A stretch of DNA of 64,000 bases from Armatimonadota bacterium (GTDB lineage Bacteria; Armatimonadota; Fimbriimonadia; Fimbriimonadales; Fimbriimonadaceae): NCBI GenBank assembly GCA_027451905.1, contig DAIDHV010000002.1, positions 186,001 to 250,000 of the forward strand, given 5' to 3'. The notes below the pieces were generated by a model. The model saw nothing but the letters and a program-made list of their open reading frames with translations, did no database searches and was not told the origin of the DNA. A program made the position numbers and the translations under genes. Positions 55,305-58,934 of the stretch are shown here, piece by piece (position 1 is the stretch's first letter; every line of letters begins with the position of its first letter).

Positions 55305-55315
55305 TTTCGACAATT

Positions 55316-55700
55316 CCTCTCAACGCTTCGCGATGAAAGGAAGGGAGCCTAAAATTCCCCTTTCTCATTCCTGCAACCACCCCGCCCCTCGCTTTCGCGA
55401 GGGGCACCCCTCCACGGACGGGAATGAGTCCGAGCAATACTGTCTTCCCGTTCCGTCACCGTTAAAACGGGGCCACCTTCCCCATCGGAGATGGGGCAGG
55501 ATAGGAGCTCCTCTTGTTTTTAAACCCAAGAGGTGTTTGCTCTCCATCGCCGACCCTTCCTCTCAACGCTTCGCGATTTCGCGAGGGCACCGCTCCACGG
55601 AGGGGGATGGGTCCGAACAATACTGTCTTCCGCTTCCGTCCCCGCTAAAGCGGGGCAACCTTCCCCATCGAAGATGGGGCAGGATGGGGGAAATCAAGGT
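55316..55700. repeat. Dispersed GC-rich repeat cluster with an internal duplication
   Basis: The word CCTCTCAACGCTTCGCGAT occurs at 55316-55334 and at 55559-55577. Its longer form at 55316-55347 is found inverted at 25328-25359 (32 nt exact). A unit of about 105 nt at 55396-55500 is repeated, with substitutions, at 55580-55684, some 183 nt further on. Each unit has small hairpins such as CCCCATC-GGA-GATGGGG and CCCCGC-TAAA-GCGGGG. No supported gene lies between 55305 and 55779. Confidence 0.8.
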
Positions 55701-56847: not shown

Positions 56848-58245
56848 ATGGCACTCTCAACCGATAAGCAGAAGGCAGCTCACCTCTTAAGAAGGTTCGG
56901 CCTTGGGGCAAGCGAAGCCGAAATTGCCTATTATATGCAAGATGGCCTTGAAGGGGCCATGGACAGGCTTCTTAACTACGAGAATGTGGAAGAAGGCTAT
57001 CCGTTTGATCCCACCGCTTTTGCCAGCAAAAAGGGAACCGTGCTTCCGATAGGGTTGGGGATGTGGTGGACGGGAAGATTGTTAGCAACCCGCAGACCGC
57101 TTCAAGAGAAAATGACTCTCTTTTGGCATAACCACTTTGCCACTAGCATCAGCAAAGTGGGTTCAAGCGGATCGATGTGGAAGCAAAACGAAACTTTTCG
57201 CCGCAATGCGGTTGGGAACTTTCGAACCATGCTTCATGAAGTCGGCAAAGACCCCGCTATGATCTATTGGTTGGACACGGAAACAGACCGCGTCAACAAC
57301 CTCAATGAAAATTTTGCGCGGGAAGTTATGGAGCTGTTTACTCTCGGCATCGGCCATTACACCGAGCACGATATCAGGCAAGCTGCCATGGCCTACACGG
57401 GCTGGGGCTTCCGACGCGATCCTGAATCTAATCGCGGATTTTACTACCCAGAGTTTGTTAACCGGCCCAAGCTGCATGACAACAGCGATAAGACAATTTT
57501 TGGAAAGACAGGAAACTTTGATGGAGACCAAGTGTTAGACATGCTTGCCGATCGAAGGCAGACCGCAAAATTCTTGGTGAACAAACTGTGGACGATGTTT
57601 GTGTATCCCAATCCAGAGCCAGATATTGTTGACCATTTAGCCGACTATTGGCGTGGGCAGAATTTGGAAATCAAGCCGCTGCTAAAAACAATGATGACAA
57701 TGCCAGAGTTTTTCTCGGCAAAGGCAGAACGGGCGGTCTTTAAGAATCCGGTTGATTTTGTTGTGGCTACTGCTAGGCAAATGGGAGTCGGCAATCTAAT
57801 TCCCCAAGACAGCCAGTTGGCCTTGGCGCCACTCGAAGCTCTTCAGGTCACTCGGGTTATCTATTCAACATTAGGAGATCAAGGTATGAAGCTGTTTTTC
57901 CCACCCAATGTGGCGGGTTGGAAGCAGGGCAGGGCGTGGATTAGTTCAGCGACACTTGTCTCTAGAATTGGCTGGGGAGAAGCTTTGTTTGGCCGCTCCA
58001 AGGGGCGCCGCGCTCAGATTTTCTTCAATGCCTATGATGTGTTTAAGTCGGACCTAACGGTATCGGGAATGGTTGATAAATTAGCATCAATCATGGATGC
58101 GCCAATAACGGATTCTAAGCGGAGGGTTCTGATCGAGACTGGTGATCATGCTTCCGGCGGCACCGTGACTCAGGAGAATTTCAGTGACGTGGCTGCAAAA
58201 ATCTCTCAAATCCTTTTTGCTGATCCGGATTTTCAGTTCTGCTAG
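56848..58245 (+). CDS. DUF1800 family protein
   Basis: 465 residues. AAHLLRRFGLGASEAEI at the N-terminus and MTLFWHNHFATS, ENFAREVMELFTLGIGHYTEHDIRQAAMAYTGW and FFPPNVAGWKQGRAWI are the standard run of DUF1800 motifs. The family is uncharacterised; it commonly sits beside a DUF1501 gene and is exported by Tat or Sec. Here no signal peptide is seen and the DUF1501 partner is missing from this locus. It is followed 46 nt later by the Doc-like gene, so they may be co-transcribed. Confidence 0.88.
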   Translation: MALSTDKQKAAHLLRRFGLGASEAEIAYYMQDGLEGAMDRLLNYENVEEGYPFDPTAFASKKGTVLPIGLGMWWTGRLLATRRPLQEKMTLFWHNHFATSISKVGSSGSMWKQNETFRRNAVGNFRTMLHEVGKDPAMIYWLDTETDRVNNLNENFAREVMELFTLGIGHYTEHDIRQAAMAYTGWGFRRDPESNRGFYYPEFVNRPKLHDNSDKTIFGKTGNFDGDQVLDMLADRRQTAKFLVNKLWTMFVYPNPEPDIVDHLADYWRGQNLEIKPLLKTMMTMPEFFSAKAERAVFKNPVDFVVATARQMGVGNLIPQDSQLALAPLEALQVTRVIYSTLGDQGMKLFFPPNVAGWKQGRAWISSATLVSRIGWGEALFGRSKGRRAQIFFNAYDVFKSDLTVSGMVDKLASIMDAPITDSKRRVLIETGDHASGGTVTQENFSDVAAKISQILFADPDFQFC

Positions 58246-58291
58246 TCTGAGTCTCTTCCCGAATCTAGGAAGGAGGATAAACTATACTGAA

Positions 58292-58726
58292 ATGGTTCTG
58301 AGGTACTTCACGGTTCAAGACGCCTTGTGGGCGCACTTTCAAATTGCCAAAAAGGTCCAAGACTTTGATTACAAGACCTTGGAACAAGCAGTGAATGCTC
58401 AATATGTTTTGGGAGACAACGGGATTGACAACCTTGTTGCGCGGGCTGCAAACATCTACAACTTGTTTTGCTCAACTCAGCCGTTTCCGTCTTATAATTC
58501 CCAACTGGGCTTTGTTTTGATGGCTGCATTTTTGAAAATCAACGGCTACGATTTTGTTGAACAAGCGGAAAAGCAGGAATCCTTGGTAACGGGTAGCCCA
58601 AATGGTCTTGATGCGACTCAATTGAAGGGCTGGATTCAGCCAGTTCAGGGCCATGAGCCGGTGAATTTTCCTAGCACAGTTAAGGGCCTTGTGAAGTCAA
58701 TCAATGGGTTGCAAAAAACGGCGTAG
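58292..58726 (+). CDS. Doc/Fic-fold protein with degenerate active site
   Basis: 144 residues from the ATG at 58292, which follows GAAGGAGGAT at a longish distance. The N-terminal YFTVQDALWAHFQIA ... LEQAVNA resembles the opening of Doc (death-on-curing) proteins. QPFPSYNSQ (63-71) followed by AAFLKINGY (78-86) lines up residue for residue with the Fic loop HPFxDGNKR and the helix ending in FLxxNGY. In the loop, His is Gln, Asp is Ser, Gly is Tyr, Lys is Ser and Arg is Gln; only Pro, Phe and Asn remain. AMP- or phosphotransfer is therefore very unlikely. No antitoxin gene is adjacent. It may be a structural or binding remnant. The frame from 58184 overlaps DUF1800 and is not used. Confidence 0.65.
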   Translation: MVLRYFTVQDALWAHFQIAKKVQDFDYKTLEQAVNAQYVLGDNGIDNLVARAANIYNLFCSTQPFPSYNSQLGFVLMAAFLKINGYDFVEQAEKQESLVTGSPNGLDATQLKGWIQPVQGHEPVNFPSTVKGLVKSINGLQKTA

Positions 58727-58755: not shown

Positions 58756-58830
58756 TGGAGCGGGCGACGAGATTCGAACTCGCGACAGCCTGCTTGGGAA
58801 GCAGGAACTCTACCACTGAGTTACGCCCGC
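58756..58830 (-). tRNA. tRNA-Gly (anticodon CCC)
   Basis: 75-nt minus-strand cloverleaf. Acceptor GCGGGCG/CGCCCGC, anticodon stem CCTGC/GCAGG with loop TTCCCAA giving CCC, T-loop TTCGAAT, discriminator T, CCA encoded. Its translation in the other strand gives the well-known false ORF beginning RATRFELAT. Confidence 0.95.
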
Positions 58831-58860
58831 TCATGTTCCAAACCATTGGTTTTAACAATT

Positions 58861-58934
58861 TGGAGCGGGTGGCGGGAATCGAACCCGCATGGCCAGCTTG
58901 GAAGGCTGGAACTTTACCACTAAGCTACACCCGC
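58861..58934 (-). tRNA. tRNA-Gly (anticodon TCC)
   Basis: 74-nt minus-strand cloverleaf 30 nt from the other glycine tRNA. Acceptor GCGGGTG/CACCCGC, anticodon stem CCAGC/GCTGG with loop CTTCCAA giving TCC, T-loop TTCGATT, discriminator T, CCA encoded. The two genes are probably one transcript. Confidence 0.95.

Follow-up and report, generated by a model that had tools for sequence, protein, structure and literature searches.

A Doc-fold protein with a replaced catalytic loop in two classes of Armatimonadota

A scaffold of the bacterial growth-arrest toxin Doc that lacks both the catalytic residues and the antitoxin has apparently been kept for a very long time in two classes of Armatimonadota, as an ordinary chromosomal gene for a resident component. 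The gene analysed here lies in a 64,000-nucleotide stretch of DNA from a member of the Fimbriimonadaceae (contig DAIDHV010000002.1, positions 186,001 to 250,000), and the term window refers to that whole stretch. By the definition of the Doc toxin family, which is based on motif and antitoxin, the protein is not a member. Our preferred reading, to which we give a probability of roughly 0.55, is that it is a vertically inherited, Doc-derived pseudoenzyme, self-completed by a C-terminal helix, which would now serve as a non-catalytic binding module.

The 144-residue pseudo-Doc open reading frame is intact and runs on the forward strand from an ATG at position 58292 to a TAG at 58724–58726 (Table 1). 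The DUF1800 gene that precedes it is not kept as a neighbour across the loci of the pseudo-Doc family. Directly 3' of the gene, and convergent with it, are tandem tRNA-Gly genes with the anticodons CCC and TCC, located on the reverse strand (window 58756–58934). A dispersed intergenic repeat at window positions 55308–55700 consists of two 104-nt copies, which are 88% identical and contain the palindrome CCTCGCTTTCGCGAGG; it has about 45 matches genome-wide, most of them partial.

Table 1. Coordinates of the pseudo-Doc gene, its segments, and related loci (window positions unless a locus is named)
Feature	Position	Strand	Basis or remark
Pseudo-Doc gene (144 aa; Doc fold, catalytic loop replaced)	58292..58726	+	ORF; AlphaFold2 pLDDT 90.7, Z 13.1 to P1 Doc; orthologues
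AAGGAGG, possible Shine-Dalgarno, 15 nt 5' of ATG (spacing above usual)	58270..58276	+	direct reading
DUF1800 gene, ends 46 nt 5' of pseudo-Doc gene	56848..58245	+	
First helix, residues 8–19; family-specific D10 (100%), W13 (96%)	58313..58348	+	
LE.A...QY segment, residues 30–41; E31 100%, Q37 99%, Y38 95% in family	58379..58414	+	
QPFPSYNSQ, residues 63–71, in Fic/Doc motif columns HxFxDGNKR	58478..58504	+	catalytic set in 0/76 family members vs 27/29 canonical Docs
NGY, residues 84–86, end of post-motif helix; N and G invariant in family	58541..58549	+	
Extra C-terminal helix, residues 126–143, absent from canonical Docs	58667..58720	+	predicted models; aligns with class III Fic inhibitory helix
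Pseudo-Doc followed by Gfo/Idh/MocA gene	L112, L114, L115, L116, L117, L118, L119, L121, L123, L124, L125, L126, L130	same strand	
f2 fusion, two Doc-fold domains	L031–L043, L050; e.g. L032:3587-4810	- (L032)	neither domain with catalytic set
f14 gene pair	L122:4165-4974 and L122:3614-4132	-	degenerate 270-aa Doc-fold-like protein; typical member 32 nt downstream

When aligned together with 29 canonical Docs of the phylum, the replaced loop falls exactly into the nine columns of the catalytic motif, in agreement with the initial annotation. The catalytic His, Asp, Lys, and Arg, which the annotation had described as gone, are substituted by Gln, Ser, Ser, and Gln, respectively. Pro64, Phe65, and Asn69 are retained, as is the rest of the helix up to Asn84-Gly85-Tyr86. 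Among the canonical Docs, 27 of the 29 have the full catalytic set, with His in 27, Asp in 26, and Lys and Arg in all 29. None of the 76 aligned family members has the set or the Doc motif HxFx(D/N)(A/G)NKR; the motif His is present in five, an Asp or Glu at the acid position in 14, the last Arg in 22, and His together with the acid in none. Two of the members that keep the His (L127:3483-3956:- and L129:1069-1524:+; HPFPYGNRRCA) have Tyr at the acid position, and are placed within the family on a long branch. Since the canonical kinase and AMP-transfer mechanism requires both the motif His and the acid (PMC4177925, PMC3667792), canonical catalysis by any of these proteins is very unlikely, and its loss from the family is strongly supported.

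The Pro, Phe, Gly, and Asn of the loop are kept in 92–99% of the family. The loop often reads xPFxxGNRRTA in Chthonomonadia, many members of which still have GN-R-R, and xPFxxGNxATA in Fimbriimonadia, in which R-R has been lost. The window copy is extreme in that the loop Gly is also missing. Outside the loop, D10, W13, N15, Q37, Y38, Y40, S43, and Q51 are conserved in the family and not in Docs, and D10, E31, N84, and G85 are invariant across the two classes. Position 15 is Asn in 92% of the family and His in 90% of Docs, and it is His in the window protein.

Polar and aromatic residues that are strongly conserved in the family, unlike in canonical Docs, favour a competing explanation, in which the protein is still an enzyme with an active site re-invented in the Doc pocket from the Asn69 loop, W13, N15, E31, Q37, and Y38. 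The loop Gly and Asn, kept in 92% of members, point in the same direction. AnkX, like AvrB, is an example of a re-purposed Fido fold. AvrB offers the precedent, as it has a Fido fold without the motif and is nevertheless a rhamnosyltransferase (PMC10866546, PMC2686095), so that by analogy the lost canonical residues could still be compatible with new chemistry. The structure of AvrB (8twj) matches the predicted model of the window protein with a Z-score of 7.3 over 114 residues, level with those of Fic proteins, and in both proteins other sequence stands in place of the motif. However, AvrB, an effector of a plant pathogen, has a large upper lobe, and no sequence relation was seen between the two. 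A new active site is difficult to reconcile with a His column that may be Arg, Lys, Ala, Gln, Pro, or Leu, with the freedom of the last two motif positions in Fimbriimonadia, and with a window copy in which little of the loop, and not even its Gly, remains. We therefore regard this explanation as unlikely, if the most serious of the competitors.

The assignment to the Doc fold rests on the family and on structure prediction more than on the window protein itself, the sequence of which gives weak evidence: it scores 14.6 bits against PF02661 (E = 0.061; cut-off 24 bits), 12.8 bits against TIGR01550 (E = 0.1; curated cut-off 38.65 bits), and E = 0.23 against the solved death-on-curing protein 9vzc. 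Its orthologues are closer to the profile, as 27 of 31 match PF02661, with a best E-value of 4.5e-7, and one sister protein passes the cut-off with 25.0 bits. A tblastn search with a sister protein gave direct matches to annotated Docs in phage and plasmid records, so homology to Doc is also supported by sequence. The AlphaFold2 model of the window protein, calculated from 31 family sequences, has a pLDDT of 90.7 and a pTM of 0.86. The best structural matches of the predicted model are chains of P1 Doc (Foldseek probability 1.00, E = 0.028), which superimpose with a Z-score of 13.1 and an rmsd of 2.4–2.7 Å over 111–113 residues (113 residues and 2.7 Å for 3kh2_C); the next-best Fic structures reach Z-scores of 7.6 and less. 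Together, the profile scores of the orthologues and the predicted fold go far beyond a chance resemblance, which can be ruled out. Thus, both the predicted fold, which could have been unlike Fic, and the loops of the orthologues, which could have been normal, as expected of a recent decay, came out in favour of the initial annotation.

The predicted model contains one helix more than Doc. The median number of residues that follow the Asn-Gly is 67 in the family and 40 in Docs, and Doc chains align only to residues 3–116 or 117 of the model. Class I and II Fics, with VbhT and FicD among the shorter alignments, stop at about residues 115–124, and the NmFic construct without the inhibitory helix (3se5) stops at 117. 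The class III proteins NmFic, HpFic, EfFic, and MmFic align through residues 142–144. The same helix pattern is seen in an independent second model, that of the N-terminal half of the two-domain protein of family f2. Class III Fic proteins carry an inhibitory helix at their own C-terminus, and the predicted helix of the pseudo-Doc family would occupy the corresponding place. In contrast to class III Fics, the family has a Doc-type core (Z-score of about 7 to them), no Fic motif, and no [S/T]xxxE helix motif: the inhibitory sequence [S/T]xxxE[G/N] was not found, the helix region of the window protein, FPSTVKGLVKSINGLQKTA, has no Glu, and no Glu position is conserved in this region of the family. 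Phd supplies Doc with core helices that Fic proteins have themselves (Kinch et al., PMC2686095). The alignment ranges of these models support the proposal that the family has internalised the helix at the Phd position and is, in that sense, a self-completed Doc.

A self-completed Doc would have no need of an antitoxin, and the initial annotation had noted that none accompanies the gene. The gene in the window has no small ORF adjoining its start, and no antitoxin family was detected in the vicinity. In the family, 10 of 60 members have such an adjoining ORF, compared with 21 of 29 canonical Docs (Fisher p = 5e-7). This positional test carries the weight of the argument, since the Pfam antitoxin scan is too insensitive even beside true Docs, where it recognised 4 of 47 ORFs in the control. 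Compared with the Doc kinase toxin of Phd-Doc (P1 Doc 3dd7/3kh2/3k33; TIGR01550, PF02661), the family thus shares the fold of residues 3–116 and the conserved E, AA, PF, GN, FL, and NG, but differs in the absence of the catalytic set and of Phd, in the additional C-terminal helix, in the family-specific D10, W13, Q37, and Y38, and in its vertical inheritance.

A single-sequence search detected orthologues in 54 of 61 relatives, and a profile search gave matches in 99 of the 113 genomes from the class of the window. Inspection of G054 and G072 showed that their sole match is a canonical Doc, which leaves 97 of 113. Across the phylum, strong orthologues (E < 1e-20, counted from the results table) are present in 132 of 291 genomes from eight families, nearly all in single copy; the weaker matches (20–48 bits), as far as they were inspected, are canonical Docs with the motif. 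The protein is therefore conserved, as the initial annotation had it. Fifty loci were recovered from 84,980 GTDB genomes, and the titles of all of them name Fimbriimonad-, Chthonomonad-, or Armatimonadetes-, or else unassigned bacteria and metagenome-assembled genomes. The family, present in the classes Fimbriimonadia and Chthonomonadia, was accordingly found only in Armatimonadota by a scan that, being based on one peptide pattern, does not prove its absence elsewhere. The viral contigs searched contained no family matches, and the phage and plasmid records gave distant ones only, of which those annotated are Doc toxins. A gene carried by 97 of 113 genomes of a class does not have the mobile, patchy distribution of a phage- or plasmid-borne toxin–antitoxin module.

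In the phylogeny calculated without the motif columns, the family is a single clade, separate from the canonical Docs of the phylum (SH-aLRT 100). The window copy is among the most divergent members, with about 30% identity to its nearest rows. The first tree placed it beside the N-terminal domains of the f2 proteins, to which the shared QPFxxYN also hinted. Orthology with those domains is unsupported, as constraining the window protein into its own family gave a higher likelihood (p-AU 0.753).

The initial annotation had also suggested a decoy target or an inhibitor, and these roles are weakened by the same genomic data. In this scenario, the protein would act in the Phd-Doc network by binding the antitoxin or the Doc target EF-Tu, and would protect against active or phage-borne Docs. 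Such a function would suit a protein that has both its fold and its docking surface from Doc, and heterologous neutralisation of one Fic protein by another is known in Campylobacter fetus (PMC5651007). Fic2 of that bacterium resembles the family in that its Fic motif is degenerate and its setting bacterial and self-acting, but it keeps the His, on which its toxicity depends, and has Fic1 as its antitoxin (PMC5651007). A decoy would be predicted to co-occur with its target, whereas the genome of the window has no recognisable Fic/Doc match to PF02661. The same holds for at least 13 more genomes that carry the gene (G002, G008, G021, G036, G057, G065, G069, G087, G089, G104, G105, G106, and G110). 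Furthermore, the protein's own helix would, according to the model, take up the antitoxin groove, and the gene is not mobile and is inherited vertically and steadily, unlike genes with defence-like turnover. We thus consider a decoy or inhibitor quite improbable. PADLOC returned matches to candidate systems only, the best with an E-value of 2.7e-7 (PDC-S23), presumably through the Fic domains of those systems, and no defence system was assigned. One 6.2-Mb genome from the family of the window (G075) contains 11 Fic/Doc matches, far above its relatives.

The search for partners, which the initial annotation had called for, gave a candidate in part of one class and none in the other. In Chthonomonadia, the pseudo-Doc gene has a co-directional Gfo/Idh/MocA oxidoreductase gene directly 3' of it in 13 of the 22 loci from families f12–f14, mostly separated by a few nucleotides or overlapping, in many genera of two families. 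The two genes likely form an operon. The neighbour is present in none of the nine f19 loci, which gives 13 of 31 examined Chthonomonadia loci overall. In Fimbriimonadia, no neighbour is conserved, the smaller shared neighbourhoods are lineage-local, and only distant Gfo/Idh/MocA members occur; in the genome of the window, the candidate orthologue of the Chthonomonadia gene proved to be such a distant member (119 bits, partial profile). The window copy is therefore not explained by this neighbour.

Pairing of Doc-like domains was also observed. In all 14 f2 proteins examined, a typical family member forms the C-terminal part, preceded by a degenerate Doc domain and, before that, an 87-residue all-helical part. 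The N-terminal half of the f2 protein is itself predicted to be Doc-like (Z-score of 13.1 to Doc). In family f14, the order of the f2 fusion recurs as two neighbouring but unfused genes. The pseudo-Doc family could thus be a structural scaffold that functions through the pairing of two Doc-like domains, as in the f2 fusion and the f14 operon. However, most genomes, including that of the window, have a single one-domain copy, and a profile search for the N-type second copy in further families gave high scores only in f2 and f14, of which the f14 match is inherent in the search profile. We judge pairing as the general function very unlikely.

Pairwise dN/dS values (NG86) have medians of 0.14 in f19 and 0.09 in the C-terminal domain of f2, the N-terminal half of which evolves faster (0.28); single close pairs give 0.11–0.23, and single-domain members together with the f2 C-terminal domains span 0.09–0.23. 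These values come from lineages with close pairs and include no close relative from the genus of the window. The family is under purifying selection, with dN/dS of about 0.1–0.2 in the sampled lineages. A recent pseudogene is ruled out by the conservation and the dN/dS values, and a functionless toxin gene heading for loss, which the divergence of the window copy might suggest, is scarcely credible given frames that are open in nearly all genomes, dN/dS of 0.09–0.23, and four residues invariant over two classes.

The preferred reading, a Doc-derived pseudoenzyme that may work as a binding domain, can be put as a sequence of events. An ancestral Doc would have gained a C-terminal helix filling the groove in which the Phd helix sits on Doc, and the fold completed by its own helix would have made the antitoxin dispensable. 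Catalysis may have been lost before, with, or after the gain of the helix. The retained PFxxGN loop and the family surface formed by D10, W13, E31, Q37, Y38, and Y40 would bind a partner protein or a nucleotide or phosphate ligand, and the binding would control or scaffold the partner. In part of Chthonomonadia, the partner may be the oxidoreductase encoded next to the gene, and in the family of the window it would be encoded elsewhere in the genome. A non-catalytic adaptor or regulatory role is our best guess, inferred by analogy with BepC of Bartonella, the non-canonical FIC domain of which acts non-catalytically by binding GEF-H1 (PMC7842960). The proposed likeness is the use of the Fido fold without catalysis; BepC is a secreted effector with a BID domain, whereas the family protein is stand-alone and resident, with a Doc-type core.

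The interpretation of the initial annotation is thus partly supported: the conserved but inactive Doc was right, and what is added is the family-wide loss of the loop, the GN-R-R of many Chthonomonadia, and the predicted C-terminal helix at the place of Phd. We advance more tentatively a specific form of the preferred reading, in which the protein is a domesticated toxin: in an ancestral Armatimonadota Doc, an intramolecular helix would have replaced Phd and made the protein harmless in the absence of an antitoxin, catalysis would have been lost, and the product would have become a near-universal regulatory subunit, of the Gfo/Idh/MocA oxidoreductase in part of Chthonomonadia and of another protein in Fimbriimonadia.

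No earlier description of the family was found in the literature searched, which left most subscription journals outside. In the descriptions that we found, degenerate Fic proteins are single cases and for the most part secreted effectors. The pseudo-Doc family offers a natural series, in which the His and acid are lost everywhere, GN-R-R remains in many Chthonomonadia, and R-R is lost in Fimbriimonadia. It also indicates that annotating Fic/Doc-like genes of this kind as toxins can be a mistake. If the preferred reading is true, the family would show a route from a toxin to a resident scaffold, with loss of the antitoxin, across two bacterial classes.
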